This document shows positions 1-33,042 of a stretch of 33,042 nt of DNA, one piece after another (the stretch's first letter is position 1; each line of letters starts with the position of its first letter). This DNA is from a virus. The position numbers were made by a program, and so were the translations under genes. The stretch lies in IMG/VR virus record IMGVR_UViG_3300013772_000036, positions 1-33,042 of that record; one strand, 5' to 3'. The notes beneath the pieces are model-generated. The model was not told the origin of the DNA and made no database searches. It saw only the letters and a list, made by a program, of their open reading frames with translations.

Positions 1-90
1 GTCACCGGAACCGGAACCGGAACCATATTGCACCGCGTCGGCGAAGGTGCCTTTAAGGAGCTTCAGGAGGACCAAGGCGTCGATTTCCAT
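1..90 (-). CDS. Gly-rich dipeptide protein A, 5' part (continues at 33042 if the window is circular)
   Basis: This is the 5' end of a leftward gene. The ATG is at base 90, inside the last codons of the DUF6948-like gene. Thirty codons are open to base 1 with no stop, giving a head that contains LLKGTFADAVQYG followed by SGSGSGD. If base 1 is joined to base 33042, the frame continues as REANNGLTVEAP and stops at 33004, giving 42 aa. Gene B (32724..33029) has the same LLKGTFADAVQYG head and a GDVREANNG tail, so the joined product matches its neighbour in design. The start codon is not certain because the Shine-Dalgarno is weak (GAAGG very close to the ATG). No function is known to me. Confidence 0.55.
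   Translation of the reverse strand, partial: MEIDALVLLKLLKGTFADAVQYGSGSGSGD
15..65. repeat. 51-bp direct repeat, copy 1 (copy 2 at 32966..33016)
   Basis: The 51 bases are identical to 32966..33016 and the match ends sharply on both sides (g14 versus t32965, g66 versus a33017). The repeat covers the conserved LKLLKGTFADAVQYG head of Gly-rich proteins A and B plus the first SG unit. Because the flanks differ, it is a duplicated gene segment and not just an assembly overlap. Confidence 0.9.
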
Positions 91-362
91 GCCTTCACCG
101 CCTCTTTGGAACATTCGGCCACGAGAGTCACGCCTTTAATGGTTCCCGCTTTAACTGGCTGCGTCACCCGCGAACCATTAAGCGGACCGCTGGTCGCGAG
201 ACCCATGACGCCGCGAACATTGGCCGACCAATAGACGCACATTTGTACTTCTTCGACGCGAATCATTTCTTTGTCTGCATCTTCCGGATTGATATATCCG
301 AAGAAAACGCCGCGAAGGTCTTTGTTCGTTGTTATCAGCACCGGAATTTTCTCACTCGTCAT
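63..362 (-). CDS. DUF6948-like early protein, 99 aa
   Basis: A 99-aa protein begins at ATG 362 behind AGGAG at a 7-nt spacing. A beta-rich N-terminus (VLITTNKDLRGVFFGYI) is followed by VYWSANVRGVMGLATSGP and a C-terminal VTLVAECSKEAVKAW. This order (strand core, C-Y-W, G-x-x-GLAT-x-GP, then V-x-ECS-x-EA-x-x-AW) fits the small phage family DUF6948 as I remember it. That family has no known biochemical role. The gene lies just downstream of the PcfJ-like gene in the leftward unit, 3 nt past its stop. Its last 28 bases overlap the start of Gly-rich gene A in another frame. The family call rests on motif recall. Confidence 0.65.
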   Translation of the reverse strand: MTSEKIPVLITTNKDLRGVFFGYINPEDADKEMIRVEEVQMCVYWSANVRGVMGLATSGPLNGSRVTQPVKAGTIKGVTLVAECSKEAVKAWKSTPWSS

Positions 363-365
363 TTC

Positions 366-1073
366 CTAGCTCCTGCGTTCAAAGATGTAATTCTCGTCAC
401 CAATATGGCTATAAATCGGCTTGTTTCCGGCGGAATCAACAAAACGGTCGAGGACGGTGCGAAGCTTCTCGTTGACATGGTAATAGCCGAGGTTTTTCAT
501 TTCCGACGGGCGCACGTCGACTCCGATCTTTTTGAGAAAGGCCGTTGTGGGGTCAATATATCTGGGATGAATCGAGCCATTCCCTTTCCCCTTGACCTGC
601 TGAATGGTCTCGCCATCTTTGGTCATCTCAAAGGTGACATGCGGATCATTGTTCTTGTCTCGCAGGGAATAGATCGTTGAACTACCTGGAGCGTTGCCAC
701 CAAGACAGTGCCGCATCAAAAAGCCTTCACGCTCGTAGGCCTTCTTGGTCAGAAGTTTCACGATCCGCATGCCATCACCAAGATCCACGAGGAGTTCTGT
801 GTCTTCGTCGGTCTCGACACGATCGCGTCCCTTCTTTTGATTGGCGTCGGACCATTTCTTCGCGGCTGTCAGCGCTTGCTCATAGCTCATCTTGCGCAAA
901 CGCGTCGGCGCGTCGGCGGATACCAAATAATCGATGATGTGCTCGCGCTCCTCGATAGGCGGAGTCGCCTTCTTGCACTGCGCGAGAAGGACGGTTTTGC
1001 ACCATTCGAGAACCTCCGCGGTGGTGCCCAATCCTTTCGCGTATTCAAGGTCTGCTTCGATCGTCTTATCCAT
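366..1073 (-). CDS. PcfJ-like domain protein, 235 aa
   Basis: A 235-aa soluble protein. The N-terminal half is helical and charged. The middle holds MRHCLGG followed by IYSLRDKNNDPHVTFEM and IQQVKGKGN. This order (M-x-HC-x-G, then I-x-SLRD, P-x-x-T-x-E and QVKGKGN) is the signature of the PcfJ-like family known from conjugative plasmids and phages, whose biochemical role is not established. The start at 1073 overlaps the stop of the upstream 58-aa gene by 8 nt. The gene is followed 3 nt later by the DUF6948-like gene, so it sits in the middle of the early operon. No signal peptide or membrane segment is visible. The family assignment is from motif recall and the function is unknown. Confidence 0.6.
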   Translation of the reverse strand: MDKTIEADLEYAKGLGTTAEVLEWCKTVLLAQCKKATPPIEEREHIIDYLVSADAPTRLRKMSYEQALTAAKKWSDANQKKGRDRVETDEDTELLVDLGDGMRIVKLLTKKAYEREGFLMRHCLGGNAPGSSTIYSLRDKNNDPHVTFEMTKDGETIQQVKGKGNGSIHPRYIDPTTAFLKKIGVDVRPSEMKNLGYYHVNEKLRTVLDRFVDSAGNKPIYSHIGDENYIFERRS

Positions 1074-1242: not shown

Positions 1243-1346
1243 ATCGAGCACCCGCCATAAAAAGCCAAAATAAATCCTAAAATAAAAACGACAAAACATA
1301 AAGCGACGACAAATCCGGTGAACGCTTCGCGCGCTTTTTCTTTCAT
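1239..1346 (-). CDS. 35-aa single-pass membrane peptide
   Basis: A 35-aa frame runs from ATG 1346 to TGA 1239. The ATG overlaps the TGA of the ERF gene (ATGA) and its own TGA overlaps the ATG of the next gene (ATGA), so it fills the gap between them exactly. The sequence has a charged N-terminus (MKEKAREAF), a hydrophobic stretch of about 20 residues (residues 12-29, VVALCFVVFILGFILAF-like) and a short GGCSI tail. The natural reading is one transmembrane helix with the N-terminus inside. The perfect double overlap and the clean hydrophobic span argue that it is real despite its size. The function is unknown. Confidence 0.6.
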   Translation of the reverse strand: MKEKAREAFTGFVVALCFVVFILGFILAFYGGCSI

Positions 1347-1993
1347 CGCGGCGCCTCAATCCCCGGATCAAACGGGATATCGCCGGCCAACTCCGCGAGC
1401 ACCGCGTCCGTCACCGTGCGCAAGTCGGTGAACGGCCTCCCGTTGAGTTTCTTGCCGATCTCGGGCCAGACAGATTCGTGGACTTTGCCTTTTTTGAGGA
1501 TCGCGGAAATAGCGTCTTGATGCTCGCCGATGTGGTTGTTGTAAATTACCGACTTGGCCGCTGGGATTGGCGCCTTTGGCGGCGGATGTGAGCGGCTCGC
1601 GATGCCGGCCGCGGCGTTCCCGTCGTCATCCTCCTCGGTGACAAGCCCGACGATCGTCGAATAGCCATACCGGCGCAGGTATGTCGTGGCGGCGCCGACG
1701 TCTTGGGCTCCCCAGCTTCTCGGTTCGCACCAAACTTCGCCGCTGAAAAACTCGCCCGAGGCGTGAACGATGGTCGTCTCGATCCCGATCATATTCCCGT
1801 TCGCCAGCGCCACCTGGATAACGGCGAGACCGTGTTTTGCGAGAATGGGACGAGACACCTCGACGCACGATGCCAGGTCGGCATAGCGACTTTTGAAGTG
1901 CGGGTTTGTCGAGTCCTTCGGTGCTGGCACTAGATCCGCTTGCGCGGCGATGAAGGCGACAAACACCTTCGATGTTTCGGCGCTAGATCTCAT
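1343..1993 (-). CDS. erf: ERF family single-strand annealing protein
   Basis: A 216-aa protein of the ERF superfamily, phage recombinases that anneal complementary single strands and can help circularise or recombine phage DNA. The N-terminal half carries the family signature: KDSTNPHFKSRYADLAS (about residues 26-42), VSRPILAKHGLAVIQ (47-61), then IETTIVHASGEFFSGE and GAATTYLRRYGYSTIVGL, the GA-x-TY-x-RRY core. After an acidic linker (TEEDDDGN) the C-terminal part is Pro/Ala-rich and then helical, as is usual in ERF proteins. The ATG at 1993 overlaps the TGA of the Gp157-like gene by 4 nt, and its own stop overlaps the 35-aa peptide gene. Together with the ERCC4-type nuclease at 3087..3572 it suggests a recombination role. 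Confidence 0.9.
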   Translation of the reverse strand: MRSSAETSKVFVAFIAAQADLVPAPKDSTNPHFKSRYADLASCVEVSRPILAKHGLAVIQVALANGNMIGIETTIVHASGEFFSGEVWCEPRSWGAQDVGAATTYLRRYGYSTIVGLVTEEDDDGNAAAGIASRSHPPPKAPIPAAKSVIYNNHIGEHQDAISAILKKGKVHESVWPEIGKKLNGRPFTDLRTVTDAVLAELAGDIPFDPGIEAPR

Positions 1994-4623: not shown

Positions 4624-5980
4624 CCCGACGAATGTTACCGCGATTGGCGGCGCGCGCAAGGGAAAAAGCAAGCCAAAGGCCGAGGGCGGTGGTGTGTGGA
4701 AGCCGAAGCAGGCCGAGTTCTATCGGGCGATCTCGGACGTGATTCGGCGGCTGCCGTCGCTCTTGCCGGCATTCCCAACGCCGACCATAGCGATCGAAAT
4801 GGAGCTCGGCGCCCACGTTCCCGCGACGGTCGAAGATGACGTCGTGACGATCATCAGCCGCGAGGCGCTCGCCATGCGGATTCAGACCTACTGCGAGACG
4901 CTGGCAAACCCGTCCTACATATTTACCGCCAAGCAGCTGCGAGATATCGCCGACCTATTTCTTATGTCGGCCGTGCCGGTATCGGCAGCGAGCATCGCCA
5001 GCGTGTCTTGGAGCGACGAGCCTGGCCTGACTTACAGGCGCCTGCCTTGGGCAAAAAATTCGGACTGGACGGCTTACGACGCGCCGACTTGGGAGAAGTT
5101 ACTCGCGAGAATGTCGAACGCCCAGGCGTTCATCGAGTGGGTTGGCAGTCTGTTCTTCGAGGACGCGCAAAGCCATAACTATGTCTGGTTGTTTGGCGAT
5201 GGAAACGACGGAAAAGGCTCGCTAAATCGGTTCCTCGAGCTCGTGTTCGGACCAGCCTATCGCGCCAAACAGCCGCCGATTGGACGGGACAAATTCTGGA
5301 CATACGGCCTTCTCGGAGCCCGCCTCGTCACCTTCGCCGAGTGCGACGACCACACATTCGTAGCCTCGGCGCTATTCAAGAGTCTCACCGGCGGCGATTC
5401 CGTAGACGTCGAGGCCAAGGGCCAAATGAGCTTCACTGCCAGGCTCAAGGCGCGATTTCTGATCTTGTCGAACAGTAAACCGACGTTATCGAGCGGGAAG
5501 GCCAACCTGCGCCGCATCATCTATTGCGAGATGGCGAAGAACGCGACGGAGTTCGACCACGAGTTCGAAGACCGCTTGTGGGACGAGGGCGGCGCGTTTC
5601 TTAGTCTATGCATTCGACAATATGCGGATAAATATCCGAAGCATGGACACATAAGGAGCGACCACGAGGACATTGAAAACTGGATCGCGACGCTCGAGGA
5701 ACCGTTCGAGATCGCCTGCGACGCGCTGTTTGATGTTGAGCCCGCCGCGTCGATCACCGCGGCGGAGATGAACGCGGCGTTGGGGCGCTATTGGGACAAA
5801 CACCCGCAGGGGATGCGCCTGGCGTTTCTGCGCTGGTTAGAAAAGACACACGGAATCAAAAAACGGCGGATTGGGGGTGGGCCGATGAGACCTAGGGTTT
5901 GGCTCGGCGCGAACCTTCGAGCAGCGTTCACCGGCGTGACTCCGCGAGGCGACGCGCCTGGACGGTTCGGCGAAGATTAG
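4613..5980 (+). CDS. Superfamily 3 DNA helicase (D5-like)
   Basis: A 455-aa protein from ATG 4613, chosen over an upstream in-frame start because GGAGG lies 7 nt before it. The N-terminal 120 residues are basic and helical. The SF3 core shows Walker A GDGNDGKGS (195-203), Walker B-like RLVTFAECDD (237-246), and motif C ILSNSKP (284-290) followed by the arginine-rich LRRIIYCEM. The domain order matches the D5/poxvirus-type replicative helicases paired with prim-pol primases in phages and plasmids. It is a hexameric 3'-to-5' unwinding enzyme by family knowledge. The last codons run into the GGGACGGG repeat region, where such a helicase may load. Confidence 0.88.
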   Translation: MEDNPTNVTAIGGARKGKSKPKAEGGGVWKPKQAEFYRAISDVIRRLPSLLPAFPTPTIAIEMELGAHVPATVEDDVVTIISREALAMRIQTYCETLANPSYIFTAKQLRDIADLFLMSAVPVSAASIASVSWSDEPGLTYRRLPWAKNSDWTAYDAPTWEKLLARMSNAQAFIEWVGSLFFEDAQSHNYVWLFGDGNDGKGSLNRFLELVFGPAYRAKQPPIGRDKFWTYGLLGARLVTFAECDDHTFVASALFKSLTGGDSVDVEAKGQMSFTARLKARFLILSNSKPTLSSGKANLRRIIYCEMAKNATEFDHEFEDRLWDEGGAFLSLCIRQYADKYPKHGHIRSDHEDIENWIATLEEPFEIACDALFDVEPAASITAAEMNAALGRYWDKHPQGMRLAFLRWLEKTHGIKKRRIGGGPMRPRVWLGANLRAAFTGVTPRGDAPGRFGED

Positions 5981-6227
5981 GACGGGAATGGGACGGGAAT
6001 GGGACGGGTTTTAATGTAACAACCTGTATTAATTGATTCCGTCCCACCCGTCCCACCCGTCCAGGGGTCAGGCGTATATAAGAAATAAATAGGGGTAAAT
6101 TGCATATTTTTTATAGGCGATTCGCCGGAAAAGCCGGGACGGCGGGACGGGTCTTGATATAGCAGCGATTACGAGATGTTAAGTCTGTTTTTTGGGGTGG
6201 ACGGGAATGGGACGTCCCTGGGACGGG
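5980..6227. repeat. GGGACGGG repeat cluster with AT-rich tract; candidate replication origin
   Basis: The non-coding interval after the helicase gene holds repeats of a GGGACGGG-type word. Forward copies start at 5980 (7 of 8 bases), 5990, 6001, 6136, 6144, 6199 and 6220. Inverted copies lie at 6039-6045, 6047-6054 and 6056-6062, and there is a perfect palindrome GGGACGTCCC at 6209-6218. The first three forward and three inverted copies can pair as a long hairpin (5980-6062) with a 30-nt AT-rich loop, bulged because spacers are AAT on one arm and A on the other. An AT-rich tract follows at 6073-6117. Direct and inverted iterons next to an unwinding tract beside primase and helicase genes fit an origin; a transcription-ending role for the hairpin is also possible. 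Confidence 0.6.
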
Positions 6228-26290: not shown

Positions 26291-27445
26291 ATGTCTGGAT
26301 GGTCCGACTATCAAAAGAAAAGCGGCGGATTGTACGGCAAAGGCGTGATGGGAGGTATCCTCGGCGCCGACAATATGACGAAACCAGGAGCCGACTCCTC
26401 ATCAGCTATCAGCGGTTTAGACCAGACCGCAAATGCCTATAAAGGCATAGCCGCGCCGACGTTGGCGCCGGTTTCGTCCGGCCCAATGGAGGCGCAGCAG
26501 GCGCAGTCATATCAGGCCGGGCCGTCGGCTTACGGCGGCATTCAGACAGACCCATCGGGGCATCAGGCGCAACAGGCGCAAATGGCGGCGCTGTCTAATC
26601 TCGCAAAAAACGGCGGTCGAAACGCTGCAAGCGACGCCAATCTCGCGCAGATTCAACAAGGCGAGAACGCAAACGCTGCCGGTCAACGCGGCGCCATCAT
26701 GCAAAACATGCAAGCGCGCGGGATGGGAGGCAGCGGCAACAGTCTCTTGGCGCAGCTGTCAAACTCCCAGAACGCGACGAACAACCAATCGGCCCAAGAC
26801 ATGCAAGTCCGCGGGCAGGATCAAAACACGGCGCTGCAAGCCGGCCAGGCCGCCGCCGGCATCGGCTCGAACATGGAAAACCAGTCGTTTAACGAGCAAG
26901 CGCAAAAGGCATCCGCGGCCGACGCGATCGCCAAGTTCAACGCGGGTCAGCAGGGCCAAACGAGCGTGTTCAACGCCGGCCAGGGCAACGCCGTCGGGGA
27001 ATCTAACGCCGGGCGCAATCAGCAGGGACAAGAGTTCAACTCTGGTCTCGGCCAACAGCAGTTCGCCGACACGATGGGAATTGCCCAAGGGAACCAACAA
27101 GGCGGAAAAGCCTCTGAGGAATATTGGGCCGACAAATACAAAGAAGATCAAAAGGCAAACGGCGGCATGCTTGGCGGCGCCGAAAAAGCTGGCGCGGCGA
27201 TCTTGGCTGCGTCTCGCGGCGGTGGCGTCCCTGGCGTGGCTCCAGTCCGCGGAAATAGCCCTCTGAATGACATCGTAAAAGTCAACACCAGCCCCGGAGA
27301 AGTTGTCGTCGATCGTGATTTGCGTCAACACGGCACAAAAGATCAGATCGCCAATTTTGTTAGAAACCCGCCGCCGATCAAAGGCTCAAACCAAGACCGC
27401 GAGGCGATGCTCGGAGCCCTCGGGAATTTGCGGAGGCGCCGGTGA
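26291..27445 (+). CDS. Internal virion-type protein, Gln/Asn/Gly-rich, 384 aa
   Basis: ATG 26291 behind AGGGG. Residues 60-270 are extremely rich in Gln, Ala, Asn and Gly (for example QQAQMAALSNLAKNGGRNAA, FNEQAQKASAADAIAKFNAG), suggesting a long helical rod. The C-terminal part has a more defined segment, NDIVKVNTSPGEVVVDRDLR followed by IANFVRNPPP, a motif 'SPGE-x-V-x-x-R' often seen at the C-terminus of phage internal proteins. The stop overlaps the GTG of the next gene (GTGA). It is probably ejected with DNA or lines the portal channel. Confidence 0.6.
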   Translation: MSGWSDYQKKSGGLYGKGVMGGILGADNMTKPGADSSSAISGLDQTANAYKGIAAPTLAPVSSGPMEAQQAQSYQAGPSAYGGIQTDPSGHQAQQAQMAALSNLAKNGGRNAASDANLAQIQQGENANAAGQRGAIMQNMQARGMGGSGNSLLAQLSNSQNATNNQSAQDMQVRGQDQNTALQAGQAAAGIGSNMENQSFNEQAQKASAADAIAKFNAGQQGQTSVFNAGQGNAVGESNAGRNQQGQEFNSGLGQQQFADTMGIAQGNQQGGKASEEYWADKYKEDQKANGGMLGGAEKAGAAILAASRGGGVPGVAPVRGNSPLNDIVKVNTSPGEVVVDRDLRQHGTKDQIANFVRNPPPIKGSNQDREAMLGALGNLRRRR

Positions 27446-29289
27446 GAACAGAAGTCGTAAAATACGTCAAGAAAAAGCGCGGCCTTTATGCGGCTGATGG
27501 CGGCGAAGTGCCTAACTTTGTCGACCAGTCGTCAGAAAACGGCGATACGCCTGCCATCGACGTTAACGCCGACACTGACGTCATGTCCGCCGATCCGAAT
27601 AAGAACTATGTCGAGCAGTCGTCGCAGAATGACCCGGCGAAAGACGACGGCAAAAAGAAGAAAAAAGCGGCCGACGACAGTCAACCGGTGCCGGATAGCC
27701 CAAAGTTCCGCATTTCTGCGATGAGTCCGATTTCTCTTAGAATACCTCCGACATTAAATGCGGCTGATGGCGGCGAAGTGCCTAACTTTGTCGACCAGTC
27801 GTCAGAAAACGGCGATACGCCTGCCATCGACGTTAACGCCGACGATGAGCCCGAGTCGAACGATGCTCCGGTGGCGAAGCCAGACGCGGCGCCAGCCGAC
27901 GATCCTGCCGCGCCAGATCCGTCGCCAGATGACGCCAAGCAACAGGCGATCAAGGACTATCTCGAAAAGCAATACGGCCAGGCCGCCGACGACAGCGGCA
28001 TCAAGGCCGCCGTTGCGGAGCAACATCATCAGAACATGATCGCGAACCTCGGCGAGGGTTTGCATGAGATGGTCACTTCGCGTGCGGTCGCAAACGGCGC
28101 CGCGCCAGATAGCGGCAAGTTCTTCCAGGGAATCCGCGACCAAGGCAAGGCCGGCGTCGACCAGGCGATGGGAGCCCGTCAACAAGCGATCCAAGGCTTC
28201 TTGCAGAAGAACGCGCTCAACCGCCAGGTCATTCAAGACCAGATGACGAAGGGGACGTACGATAATCAGCAGGCCGCGGCGAAGGCGGCGCAGTCGTTAA
28301 ACGATCCAACATCGCCTCATTCACTCGGCATGCAGCCGCTGTTTCAAAAACTGTGGTCCAAGCAACTCGCTGGCGCCGACGTTTCGAATCTTTCCGCCAA
28401 TCAAATGGACGATCTCGGCAAGCAATTCGAGCACAAGTCGGCGACCGATCAGGCCGGTATGACCGCACAGTTGCGTGCCGATGCGTTGAAGTTCGGCGCT
28501 CAAGCCCACGCAGATGCGATGCAAAGCAACCTGCAAAACAGACAGGCATATGCCGACGACAGGTCCGACAAGAAAACGGCCGCGACTCAGTCGGCGAAGA
28601 TGCTCGAAATGGAAAACAAGGGCATGGGAGGTCGCGGAGCTCCGCAATATATCTCGCAGAACATGCGAACCCAACAATCGATCAAGAACGCGAATAAAAT
28701 GCTCGATGAGCTCCCGAAAGACGCGACTGGTCAGTCTGATTACGACAAGATGAACGACAAGCAAATACACCTTTTTAACGCAGAATTGGAGCGCATCGCT
28801 TCTAACGGCGCGCCGACTGAATCCGGTCGAAATGCCATGGAAGCCGACACGCTAAAATCTAAATGGCAAGAATTTAAGCAAAAATTCGTAGGAAATCCTC
28901 TCCCGGCTGACGTCGGCAATTTCGTCAGGCAGAACGCGAAATATTTGCGCGACCTAAAGGACTCTGTCGACTCGACTGTTAACGGATTTAGACGCGAAAA
29001 CTATGACAATTACGCTGGCATAAACGCCATTTCGGCCAAAGACGCCGAGACATACCGCGGCAAACACCCGGAGCTATTCCCCGAGGAGAACGGGACGCCA
29101 GCAGCTCCAGACAAACCGGCGGCGGCTCCGCAAGTCGGCGGCCCTGGCATGGCGGTCGGCGCTCCGGCAGGGCAATCGCCGGCTGACGGCATGGTCAAGA
29201 TCCAGGACCCGAAAACCGGCGAAACCCGCATGGTGCCGCCTGACGCCGTTTCGAAGTATCTCAAAAAGGGCGGAAAGGTGGTCAATTGA
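27442..29289 (+). CDS. Internal virion protein with duplicated N-terminal segment, 615 aa
   Basis: GTG 27442 overlaps the previous stop (GTGA). The N-terminal 200 residues are acidic and contain an exact duplication of ADGGEVPNFVDQSSENGD-type sequence about 90 residues apart. A weaker third relative, NYVEQSSQNDPA, lies between them. The remaining 400 residues are helical and rich in Ala, Gln, Lys and Asp (IKDYLEKQYGQAADDSGIKA, NALNRQVIQDQMTKGTYDNQ). The C-terminus has a Pro/Ala linker and ends in DAVSKYLKKGGKVVN. It is likely an ejection protein. Its TGA overlaps the TTG of the next gene. Confidence 0.6.
   Translation: MRTEVVKYVKKKRGLYAADGGEVPNFVDQSSENGDTPAIDVNADTDVMSADPNKNYVEQSSQNDPAKDDGKKKKKAADDSQPVPDSPKFRISAMSPISLRIPPTLNAADGGEVPNFVDQSSENGDTPAIDVNADDEPESNDAPVAKPDAAPADDPAAPDPSPDDAKQQAIKDYLEKQYGQAADDSGIKAAVAEQHHQNMIANLGEGLHEMVTSRAVANGAAPDSGKFFQGIRDQGKAGVDQAMGARQQAIQGFLQKNALNRQVIQDQMTKGTYDNQQAAAKAAQSLNDPTSPHSLGMQPLFQKLWSKQLAGADVSNLSANQMDDLGKQFEHKSATDQAGMTAQLRADALKFGAQAHADAMQSNLQNRQAYADDRSDKKTAATQSAKMLEMENKGMGGRGAPQYISQNMRTQQSIKNANKMLDELPKDATGQSDYDKMNDKQIHLFNAELERIASNGAPTESGRNAMEADTLKSKWQEFKQKFVGNPLPADVGNFVRQNAKYLRDLKDSVDSTVNGFRRENYDNYAGINAISAKDAETYRGKHPELFPEENGTPAAPDKPAAAPQVGGPGMAVGAPAGQSPADGMVKIQDPKTGETRMVPPDAVSKYLKKGGKVVN
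27488..27573 (+). repeat. 86-bp exact direct repeat, copy 1
   Basis: Identical over 86 bases to 27758..27843. The copies are 270 bp apart, exactly 90 codons, so both are read in the same frame and code for the same residues. The match ends at a27574 versus g27844 and t27487 versus a27757. The intervening 184 bp encodes a Lys-rich segment and a Ser/Ile/Pro-rich one. Confidence 0.95.
27758..27843 (+). repeat. 86-bp exact direct repeat, copy 2
   Basis: Second copy of the unit at 27488..27573, in the same reading frame. Identity even at third codon positions points to a recent duplication or ongoing recombination between copies; loss of one copy with the intervening DNA would delete 90 codons without a frameshift. 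Confidence 0.95.
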
Positions 29290-31505: not shown

Positions 31506-31684
31506 GCCCTTGGATGACCGATATCGGCAAGGAAGTCATCGTCGCGCTCCTGACCGCCGGCCTCAGCTGGCTCGGCCATTTCGTGGCGCGTCTCACCCGC
31601 GACTTGAACGCCTCGTTCCAGAAGATCAGAGACCTCGAAAACAGAGTTAAGTGCCTAGAAAACGAAACTTATGGGGGGGAGTGA
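31502..31684 (+). CDS. Small membrane protein with coiled coil, 60 aa; holin or spanin candidate
   Basis: ATG 31502 overlaps the previous stop (ATGA). A hydrophobic segment (about residues 12-28, VIVALLTAGLSWLGHFV) is followed by a basic, then coiled-coil-like tail (ARLTRDLNASFQKIRDLENR) with one Cys. One membrane helix plus a charged coiled coil is the layout of class III holins and of inner-membrane spanins; the short tail argues against a full Rz protein. The endolysin lies far away at 6853..7314, so the lysis genes would be split. Confidence 0.55.
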   Translation: MSPWMTDIGKEVIVALLTAGLSWLGHFVARLTRDLNASFQKIRDLENRVKCLENETYGGE

Positions 31685-31686
31685 AC

Positions 31687-32016
31687 ATGGAAGGTATTTT
31701 TGAAGGACTCGCGGTCAAGTTCGCAGTGCATGAGATCAGCGTTTATGGCGTCGCCGTCGACTGGGCCAAGATGAAGGCCGATTTCGATGCGAAGCTCAAG
31801 GCGCTGCTCCCGGCGTTCTGGGACGTGGAAGCCGAGAAGGCCGTCAACGCGGTTGTCGATGCATGTAAATCGGCGTTGCAAGATGCCGGCGACATGTCGG
31901 CGATTCTAACGGCACTGGCGGCGAAGGATTTCGTCGGCGCAGAGGGCGCGTTGATCGACCTCGTGGGTAAGCTCCCAGGCGGGCACCTATTCCTCCAGGC
32001 GCTCGGCGCGGCGTGA
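31687..32016 (+). CDS. Hypothetical protein, 109 aa
   Basis: ATG 31687 with a strong GGGGGAG site. The product is helical and has no membrane segment: FDAKLKALLPAFWDVEAEKA is followed by AVVDACKSALQDAGDM and a glycine-rich end (DLVGKLPGGHLFLQALGAA). It is the last gene of the rightward unit. Its 3' end overlaps the convergent zinc-ribbon gene by 30 bp. The family is unknown to me. Confidence 0.65.
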   Translation: MEGIFEGLAVKFAVHEISVYGVAVDWAKMKADFDAKLKALLPAFWDVEAEKAVNAVVDACKSALQDAGDMSAILTALAAKDFVGAEGALIDLVGKLPGGHLFLQALGAA

Positions 32017-32251: not shown

Positions 32252-32433
32252 TTTTTCTTCTTCCCTTCCCGCTTCGCAGCCCGAATGATGCGCGCTGCAC
32301 TAGAAAAGCTGACGCCGATTTTAGCTTCGATGTCTCGGCAGGAATACCCGCCAGCGTGAAGGCGCAAGACTTCGAAACGTTTCTCGACGGAGATCTCAAG
32401 CTTCATCGGCTTGCCGCAGTGCTCGCAGATCAT
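32248..32433 (-). CDS. Small zinc/HTH DNA-binding protein, 61 aa
   Basis: ATG 32433 overlaps the stop of the XRE gene (ATGA). The N-terminus MICEHCGKPM has a CxxC pair, and a resolvase/sigma-type helix-turn-helix follows: EKRFEVLRLHAGGYSCRDIE (18-37), then AKIGVSFSSAARIIR. The C-terminus is very basic (RAAKREGKKKK). Phage regulators of this size with a 'GYS-x-x-x-I-A-x-x-x-G-x-S-x-x-x-V-x-R-I' layout are common. It probably binds DNA. Target unknown. Confidence 0.7.
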   Translation of the reverse strand: MICEHCGKPMKLEISVEKRFEVLRLHAGGYSCRDIEAKIGVSFSSAARIIRAAKREGKKKK

Positions 32434-32666
32434 TTCTCACCTAAAAGACGAGACATTTTCGCGCCAAGGGCATTCGAAATTGAAAGACTAGAGCCCAGAG
32501 TCGGACACCTCTTGCCGGCTTCGATTTGACTGATGGCCGCTGGCGTTAATCCGCTGCGTGTCGCAAGTTCGGCGGCCGTCATCCCAAGAAATTCTCGGCA
32601 AGATTTTACATTCTTGGCGAACACTCTTGCGATATCGACGTCGGCTGTTTTGTTTTTCGACTTCAT
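32430..32666 (-). CDS. XRE-family transcriptional regulator, 78 aa
   Basis: The start is set at ATG 32666 (GAG 7 nt upstream); a TTG at 32672 is possible. The Cro/CI-type helix-turn-helix covers residues 26-58: EFLGMTAAELATRSGLTPAA is followed by ISQIEAGKRCPTLGSSLSIS, with the typical 'S-Q-I-E-x-G-x-R-x-P-T-L'. There is no C-terminal peptidase domain, so it is Cro-like and not LexA/CI-like. It could repress or switch early transcription. It is not enough to call the phage temperate, as no integrase is seen. Confidence 0.8.
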   Translation of the reverse strand: MKSKNKTADVDIARVFAKNVKSCREFLGMTAAELATRSGLTPAAISQIEAGKRCPTLGSSLSISNALGAKMSRLLGEK

Positions 32667-32710
32667 TCCCAAACTCTGATTTTTTCGATCTTTGTTGTCG
32701 GTTTGCGAAA

Positions 32711-32749
32711 TTAAATTTGTTCACTACTCCTCCTCAATTTCGCATCCAT
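32711..32749 (-). CDS. 12-codon remnant of a third repeat-gene cassette
   Basis: ATG 32749 follows the same AGGGAGGCGAAC leader as gene B and opens MDAKLRRSSEQI before a stop at 32711. The opening MD-x-x-L matches the MDSQL of gene B. It overlaps the 3' end of gene B in another frame. It is too short to be a sure gene and is most easily read as the degenerate start of a third cassette, or as a coupling peptide for the XRE gene. Confidence 0.3.
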   Translation of the reverse strand: MDAKLRRSSEQI

Positions 32750-33029
32750 TGTTCGCCTCCCTGACGTCACCGTAACCGGAACCGAAACCGTCACCGTCAC
32801 CGTAACCGTCACCGTCACCGTCACCGTCACCGTAACCGTAACCGTAACCGGAACCGTCACCGTAACCGGAACCGTCACCGTCACCGTAACCGTAACCGTA
32901 ACCGTAACCGGAACCGGAACCGGAACCGGAACCGGAACCGGAACCGTAACCGTAACCGTAACCGTAACCGGAACCATATTGCACCGCGTCGGCGAAGGTG
33001 CCTTTAAGGAGCTTCAACTGTGAGTCCAT
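32724..33029 (-). CDS. Gly-rich dipeptide protein B encoded by a hexanucleotide array, 101 aa
   Basis: ATG 33029 has GGGAGG 7 nt upstream, a strong site. The head is MDSQLKLLKGTFADAVQ. Then 35 dipeptides follow, all ending in Gly: YG (13), SG (10), DG (9)-type units plus one FG, given by order of blocks and not random (for example six SG in a row between blocks of four YG). The tail is GDVREANNGCEIEEE. It is low-complexity, aromatic-glycine-rich and probably unfolded, perhaps phase-separating or surface-sticky. Family and function are unknown to me. The start lies inside the 3' end of gene A, and the tail carries the leader of the next small frame. Confidence 0.7.
   Translation of the reverse strand: MDSQLKLLKGTFADAVQYGSGYGYGYGYGSGSGSGSGSGSGYGYGYGYGDGDGSGYGDGSGYGYGYGDGDGDGDGYGDGDGFGSGYGDVREANNGCEIEEE
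32769..32972. repeat. 34-unit hexanucleotide array ACCGNN
   Basis: Thirty-four consecutive 6-bp units, all ACCG followed by TA, GA or TC (one AA). On the minus strand they read TAC, TCC or GAC followed by GGT. So every unit is one dipeptide, the glycine codon never varies, and the other codon changes at one base at a time. The phase of the array is kept throughout. A shorter array of three SG units is at bases 1-24 in gene A. Confidence 0.95.
32966..33016. repeat. 51-bp direct repeat, copy 2 (copy 1 at 15..65)
   Basis: Identical to 15..65. It encodes the conserved head of gene B from LKLLKGTF through YG and the first SG unit. See the entry at 15..65 for the boundaries. Confidence 0.9.
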
Positions 33030-33042
33030 TGTTCGCCTCCCT
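33004..33042 (-). CDS. Gly-rich dipeptide protein A, 3' part (joins base 1 if circular)
   Basis: Reading leftward from base 33042, the frame that continues the gene at 1..90 gives REANNGLTVEAP and a TAA at 33004-33006. The REANNG tail is shared with gene B, and the codon phase at the window edge fits without adjustment. This stretch also contains the leader and ATG (33029) of gene B, so genes A and B overlap by 26 bp. Confidence 0.5.
   Translation of the reverse strand, partial: REANNGLTVEAP

Follow-up and report, generated by a model that had tools for sequence, protein, structure and literature searches.

A predicted Sm-like phage protein family, DUF6948, paired with a hypervariable Gly-X repeat gene

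RESULTS

DUF6948 and an adjacent gene built of Gly-X repeat units form what is apparently a widespread and undescribed phage gene pair. The two genes stand side by side, the array keeps its reading frame and a conserved residue alphabet, its order and length are hypervariable, and the pair frequently lies among recombination and replication genes. The pair is carried by hundreds of phage contigs from a wide range of environments, by phage isolates of Pectobacterium, Iodobacter, Vibrio, and Chlorobiaceae, and by gonococcal genomes. The stretch of DNA analyzed here in full (the window) is a viral record of 33,042 bases, linear by its IMG/VR class.

At the right end of the window, array gene B (32724 to 33029, minus strand; ATG at 33027 to 33029) is an ORF whose translation is a 101-amino-acid protein of the form MDSQLKLLKGTFADAVQY-(GX)35-VREANNGCEIEEE. 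Its hexamer array (32766 to 32975, minus strand) consists of 35 GGTNNC units in perfect register, with NN being TA in 14, TC in 10, GA in 10, and TT in 1, which gives the X codons TAC (14), TCC (10), GAC (10), and TTC (1). The TRF score of this array, 275, is far above chance, and the existence of a repeat-array gene, as proposed in a preliminary description of this DNA, is not in doubt. That description had counted 34 units, each one base away from the others; there are 35, one of them TTC, and TCC is two bases away from GAC. An SD-like sequence, AGGGAGG, precedes the ATG, and the ribosome-binding and start region of the cassette (33014 to 33042, minus strand) is copy 2 of a repeat, D8, copy 1 of which lies 3' of the array (32734 to 32762, minus strand). 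AGGGAGGCGAACAATGG is present twice, once 5' of gene B and once past its array (at ~32746 to 32762). This third SD/start-like copy agrees with the start-like remnant reported earlier after the array. The tail REANNG, which had been taken to be shared by two genes, is mostly AGGGAGGCGAACAATGG, that is, the SD/start region of the next cassette read in frame.

The 5' part of a second copy, array gene A, occupies positions 1 to 90 (minus strand; start codon at 88 to 90), where the head MEIDALVLLKLLKGTFADAVQY is followed by four GX units (S, S, S, D) and then by the contig end. Copy A shares a core of ~47 bases with copy B, and its first segment differs (MEIDALVL). The earlier proposal of two genes with a common head and tail therefore holds for the head, a copy of which is present at 1 to 90, but not for the tail. 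Because the array of gene A runs off the contig, the "3 units" ascribed to it mark an edge rather than a length, and the comparison of 3 with 34 units is not supported, since it depends on a truncated array and treats a linear record as if its ends met. When the ends are joined, GGTGAC is followed directly by AGGGAGG, compared with GGTGACGTCAGGGAGG after array B, and circular closure of the record is plausible. Tandem cassettes with common heads and different arrays, as suggested for the window, recur in other phages (five cassettes at L162, seven at L225, and five at L230). One MAG (G003) has a pair of copies that agree in head and C-terminal domain, with ~40 units in one array and only a few in the other. 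Among IMG/VR records, we found no close relatives of the DUF6948 protein or the array head of the window, and a similarity search of array and head against phages, with the low-complexity filter on, gave no match.

The key neighbor of the array, absent from the preliminary description, is the DUF6948 gene at 63 to 362 (minus strand), the 3' end of which overlaps the start of array gene A. Its 99-amino-acid product, predicted to be Sm/LSm-like, matches PF22253 (E = 3e-13) at 50.2 bits over profile positions 3 to 85 of 85, above the curated Pfam cutoff of 27 bits. The early gene cluster also includes, farther upstream, a gene for a PcfJ-like protein (366 to 1073, minus strand; PF14284, E = 1.7e-6). 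An Erf-type single-strand annealing protein is encoded at 1343 to 1993 (minus strand; PF04404, E = 4e-21), and an HTH_3 regulator is encoded downstream of array gene B (32430 to 32672, minus strand; PF01381, E = 5.6e-12). The content of the window is podovirus-like, including Erf, a primase, a DNA methyltransferase, a terminase, a portal, and an internal virion protein. A search with the downstream gene at 31651 to 32016 found no relatives. The PcfJ-like gene has three, all without GX arrays (L122, 6400 to 8200; L123, 6400 to 7211; L124, 6400 to 7300). These carry another C-terminal repeat, ASSGNYSQL/ATSGDYAPS, in which the N/D/Y positions are variable and which the window copy does not have, and L122 has an additional repeat ORF (QLYSQLYSQLD). 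Elsewhere in the window, two 91-base direct repeats (27488 to 27578 and 27758 to 27848; 98% identity, 270 bases apart) lie inside the ORF at 27442 to 29289, and short GGACGGGAATG direct repeats lie between early genes at 5980 to 6008 and 6199 to 6227.

GGTNNC arrays occurred in viral contigs in at least 119 stretches; in prokaryotic genomes (257 Gb), a comparable mixed pattern gave 10 stretches. We surveyed 176 arrays from 151 loci and clustered the neighboring ORFs. The dominant neighbor family was DUF6948, present at 113 of ~147 array-bearing loci, and most of the array loci without it were cut by contig ends. The DUF6948 gene was nearly always just upstream of the array and on the same strand, mostly ending less than ~60 bases from it. 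In a reverse sample, in which loci were picked by a DUF6948 DNA motif, a Gly-X array lay downstream in about 98 of the 99 to 100 usable loci, a rate best read as "nearly all," since a few of the 98 depend on a choice of frame or on distant runs (e.g., L291). Three motif-picked loci had no array: L338 was cut short, L340 was not DUF6948, and L268 had a disrupted ORF. At two loci (L140 and L187), the DUF6948 frame runs on into the array (PF22253, E = 8e-23 and 1e-20). Adjacency and these two fusions suggest that the DUF6948 protein and the array product may interact physically.

Genes for Erf, RecT, RecE, exonuclease, SSB, and resolvase recur near the pair, which thus often lies in an early recombination/replication region. 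In cellular genomes, DUF6948 is infrequent: it was found in 0 of 398 others in the phylum of G001, in 1 of 395 in the phylum of G003, and in 0 of 14 control genomes, and the Pectobacterium DUF6948 gene had no DNA-level match in E. coli genomes. Two Neisseria gonorrhoeae records in a plasmid collection (L243 and L365), which are chromosome-sized (2.17 Mb), have three DUF6948-like places each, and in both records one of these has an adjacent GN/GS/GY array.

The view that the array acts as a protein is well supported by its coding features. An in-frame start lay within 120 bases of 226 of 241 arrays, and 122 of the 241 had an SD-like site; in control frames, an ATG with an SD was found in 6 of 482. 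Among ORFs with a recurrent C-terminal domain (FAHG...WHxxLTGSCxxGR), the array was in frame in 35 of 35. These in-frame starts, SD-like sites, and in-frame domains lend good support to translation of the array frame, and, as in a coding variable tandem repeat, there is an ORF, start signals are present, and lengths come in unit multiples. The recurrent domain, of ~150 amino acids, occurs at L128, L213, L229, and 32 other loci; AF2 models it with confidence (pLDDT of 93), and neither a Pfam family nor a convincing PDB fold match was found for it. At L003, L038, L139, L169, L193, L198, and L204, the array proteins end in another recurrent domain (AYWRSDxxGxPANGG...ALHATxxPxKWKGERxWxVALxGEV...GALKREII), which likewise gave no Pfam match. 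The pure GLGL/GVGV hexamer arrays of L008, L079, L073, and L013 are a different, monotone repeat class, and all of these contigs except L013 share the head NHAxRQLxTVLxVIRI.

Over 280 arrays, the X residues were Ser (36%), Tyr (30%), Asp (23%), Phe (3%), and Asn (3%). The unit that encodes them differs by phage (GGT-NNC, GGC-NNC, GGC-NNT, or GGG-NNC) and is homogeneous within ~240 of the 280 arrays. TC, TA, and GA account for ~90% of NN dinucleotides, and the Ala codon GCC was observed 29 times in the 280 arrays, compared with 735 expected when NN is built from T/G plus A/C. Within arrays, heterozygosity was 0.67 at the X codon (amino-acid-changing positions), compared with 0.046 and 0.056 at the synonymous positions, which vary in ~5% of units. 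One reading of this synonymous uniformity is that recombination homogenizes the units and that selection maintains the mix of residues. Unit type was no more alike at 70 to 80% DUF6948 identity than between distant DUF6948 proteins, so the partner seems blind to synonymous bases.

Comparison of related phages indicates that the array can change in order and length while the neighboring DNA stays identical, array change thus outpacing mutation of the flanks. Eight Pectobacterium/Dickeya phages have array genes with the head MSKLIKPE(K/R)YG, encoding 53, 85, 73, 73, 67, 83, 89, and 73 amino acids. Ymer and Amona match base for base through 4 kb on the upstream side of the array and 1 kb on the downstream side, yet their arrays, of 30 and 27 units, are ordered differently. 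In Pappous and Taid, the downstream 994 bases are identical and the likeness of the arrays is 0.36, compared with 0.40 for shuffled arrays, and L267 and L314 fit this pattern, with 40 and 48 units. Between the two gonococcal genome records, the arrays show a one-unit difference and substitutions. Identical arrays are often found in independent IMG/VR contigs whose flanks are identical, which means that assemblies can reproduce them.

Array lengths in the survey ranged from 4 to more than 70 units. Identical units stood next to each other a little less often than in shuffled arrays (lag-1 value of 0.283 versus 0.305), and multiunit blocks were repeated in 75 of 210 arrays, a combination that fits block duplication or recombination better than single-unit slippage. 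Growth and shrinkage by slippage or recombination had been proposed for the window; block duplication and recombination are in keeping with the arrays, and single-unit slippage as the sole mechanism is disfavored. We also considered the arrays as recombination breakpoints; the Pectobacterium phage genomes are mosaic throughout, and no special role of the arrays was seen.

The DUF6948 protein of the window was modeled with AF2 from 65 family sequences (pLDDT of 94.8, pTM of 0.87). Sm/LSm proteins made up all of the 20 best PDB fold matches, with 3by7 and spliceosomal SmE at the top, at modest scores (probability of 0.8 to 1.0, E of 0.03 to 0.5, TM of 0.4 to 0.5), and small beta-barrels are readily cross-matched in fold searches. 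In the model, the helix is C terminal rather than N terminal. Among viral proteins, the fold search matched DUF6948 proteins and, at lower rank, phage proteins labeled Sm-like or RNA-binding. At the sequence level, no PDB entry matched the profile at an E value of ≤1, and homology to Sm, LSm, or Hfq was thus not detected. Judged from the model, DUF6948 probably has an Sm/LSm-like fold.

DISCUSSION

The reading that we prefer, tentatively and at somewhat less than an even chance, is that of a two-gene phage module in which DUF6948 would be the nucleic-acid-binding partner and the Gly-X product a disordered tail or scaffold with a composition-driven role. The first gene (63 to 362 in the window) would supply a small protein, Sm/LSm-like by prediction, that putatively binds RNA or single-stranded DNA, probably as a ring. 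The second gene follows immediately, in many cases overlapping the 3' end of the first, and encodes a presumably disordered (Gly-X)n chain in which X is Ser, Tyr, or Asp. Some of these chains carry a folded domain at the C terminus, and at two loci the chain is fused in frame to DUF6948. Early in infection, this Gly/Ser/Tyr/Asp chain would serve as a multivalent disordered tail or scaffold of DUF6948, with aromatic residues as stickers and acidic residues as spacers. Blocks of units would be rearranged fast by recombination, perhaps aided by phage annealing proteins, with frame and residue mix kept, and such rearrangement would be tolerable because composition rather than order would matter. 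The pair would thereby join a predicted Sm-like protein with a disordered chain of a type known from eukaryotic condensates. With identical flanks and different arrays, the isolated phages Ymer, Amona, and Koroua offer a direct way to test what array order and length do.

Hypervariability could reflect diversifying selection instead of indifference to order. The array might be a diversity label or decoy, diversified, for example, to escape a sensor of the host or of a rival phage or to mark self against coinfecting phages. This is one of two serious rivals, although we consider it unlikely. In its favor are the differences in order and length at identical flanks (Ymer and Amona, ~5 kb with 0 mismatches) and the high heterozygosity at the X codon (0.67 versus 0.046 and 0.056 at synonymous positions). 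However, composition is conserved across very different phages, as fits a composition-driven role, there is no known sensor or target, and PADLOC defense models gave no informative match for the proteins tested. A functionless, selfish or neutral expansion of microsatellite type in a dispensable ORF is quite unlikely. Recombination can expand repeats, lengths run from 4 to more than 70 units, and order looks almost random, but pairing with DUF6948 is near-constant over hundreds of diverse phages, the same residue alphabet arises from different codons with Ala excluded, and frame, starts, and C-terminal domains are maintained. That the differences between isolates are mostly short-read misassembly of the repeat is highly improbable. 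Ymer and Abuela were indeed assembled from short reads (NextSeq 300 cycles, metaSPAdes; PMC11445585), and contig ends fall in arrays, those of the window included; however, the arrays of Ymer and Abuela are identical, the two N. gonorrhoeae records show a difference of one unit together with substitutions, and arrays often agree between independent IMG/VR contigs with identical flanks.

The other serious rival, and the strongest by anatomy because a GG-Y-NN-Y unit stands beside a small protein, is that the array transcript is a guide RNA of period 6, bound by Sm-like DUF6948, with the information in NN. The precedent is VIPR, whose vrRNAs are noncoding YNNGG repeats with free NN and whose Vipr protein is a RAMP/RRM protein of ~20 kDa (preprint PMC13142463). 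The GG-Y-NN-Y anatomy, a small neighbor of Sm-like fold, carriage by phages, tandem cassettes, and hypervariable NN all speak for such an RNA, yet we regard it as very unlikely. With ~90% of NN being TC, TA, or GA, no natural long target could be spelled, and GC is shunned as though Ala were forbidden. Arrays of GGG or GGA units occur, the frame is kept into C-terminal domains, and unit type is independent of DUF6948 relatedness. In a small target test (10 arrays against 3 Mb, with 0 to 4 skipped bases and both orientations), NN strings matched phage DNA no better than shuffled strings did. Period, NN alphabet, GGR arrays, frame conservation, and this test together disfavor the guide-RNA reading. 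The broader proposition that the arrays are a second information-bearing class of phage repeats, with the transcript (perhaps besides the protein) bound by DUF6948 and the variable dinucleotides specifying something, as in VIPR but through a different protein family and repeat period, is most improbable.

A literature search that covered mainly journal papers open without subscription found no paper that names DUF6948 and nothing relevant on the GSGYG motif in phages. The earlier remark that such proteins have no described function thus stands within that search, and, with no function or description found, the paired system is new relative to known systems. The family itself is already catalogued in Pfam (PF22253) without a function, the window gene at 63 to 362 being a member; to that entry the present analysis adds the pairing with an array gene, the prediction of an Sm-like fold, and the observation that the array is hypervariable.

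The DUF6948/array pair is not a member of VIPR. Both combine a phage-borne small protein with adjacent repeats of GGY plus a variable dinucleotide, in several cassettes per locus. However, the period is 5 (YNNGG) in VIPR and 6 in the window and the surveyed arrays, the VIPR protein is a RAMP/RRM protein of ~20 kDa as opposed to a predicted Sm-like domain of ~10 kDa, and the conserved array neighbor, DUF6948, has fold matches of the Sm type, not RRM. VIPR NN is free and noncoding, whereas here NN is limited to Ser, Tyr, and Asp codons in an ORF, and, unlike the GGY of VIPR, GGR arrays are present among the partners of DUF6948. With VNTR or contingency-type genes the arrays share in-frame gain and loss of repeats; here, in contrast, order is scrambled too, a near-obligate partner gene is present, and synonymous positions are homogenized while amino-acid-changing ones are mixed. 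A eukaryotic parallel is provided by Sm/LSm proteins with low-complexity regions, such as LSM14/RAP55 and EDC3, and the tails of Hfq are comparable. The fold class, as predicted for DUF6948, and the disordered low-complexity chain are common to these proteins and to the phage pair; in the phages, a hypervariable gene of its own, of Gly-X type, usually encodes the disordered part.
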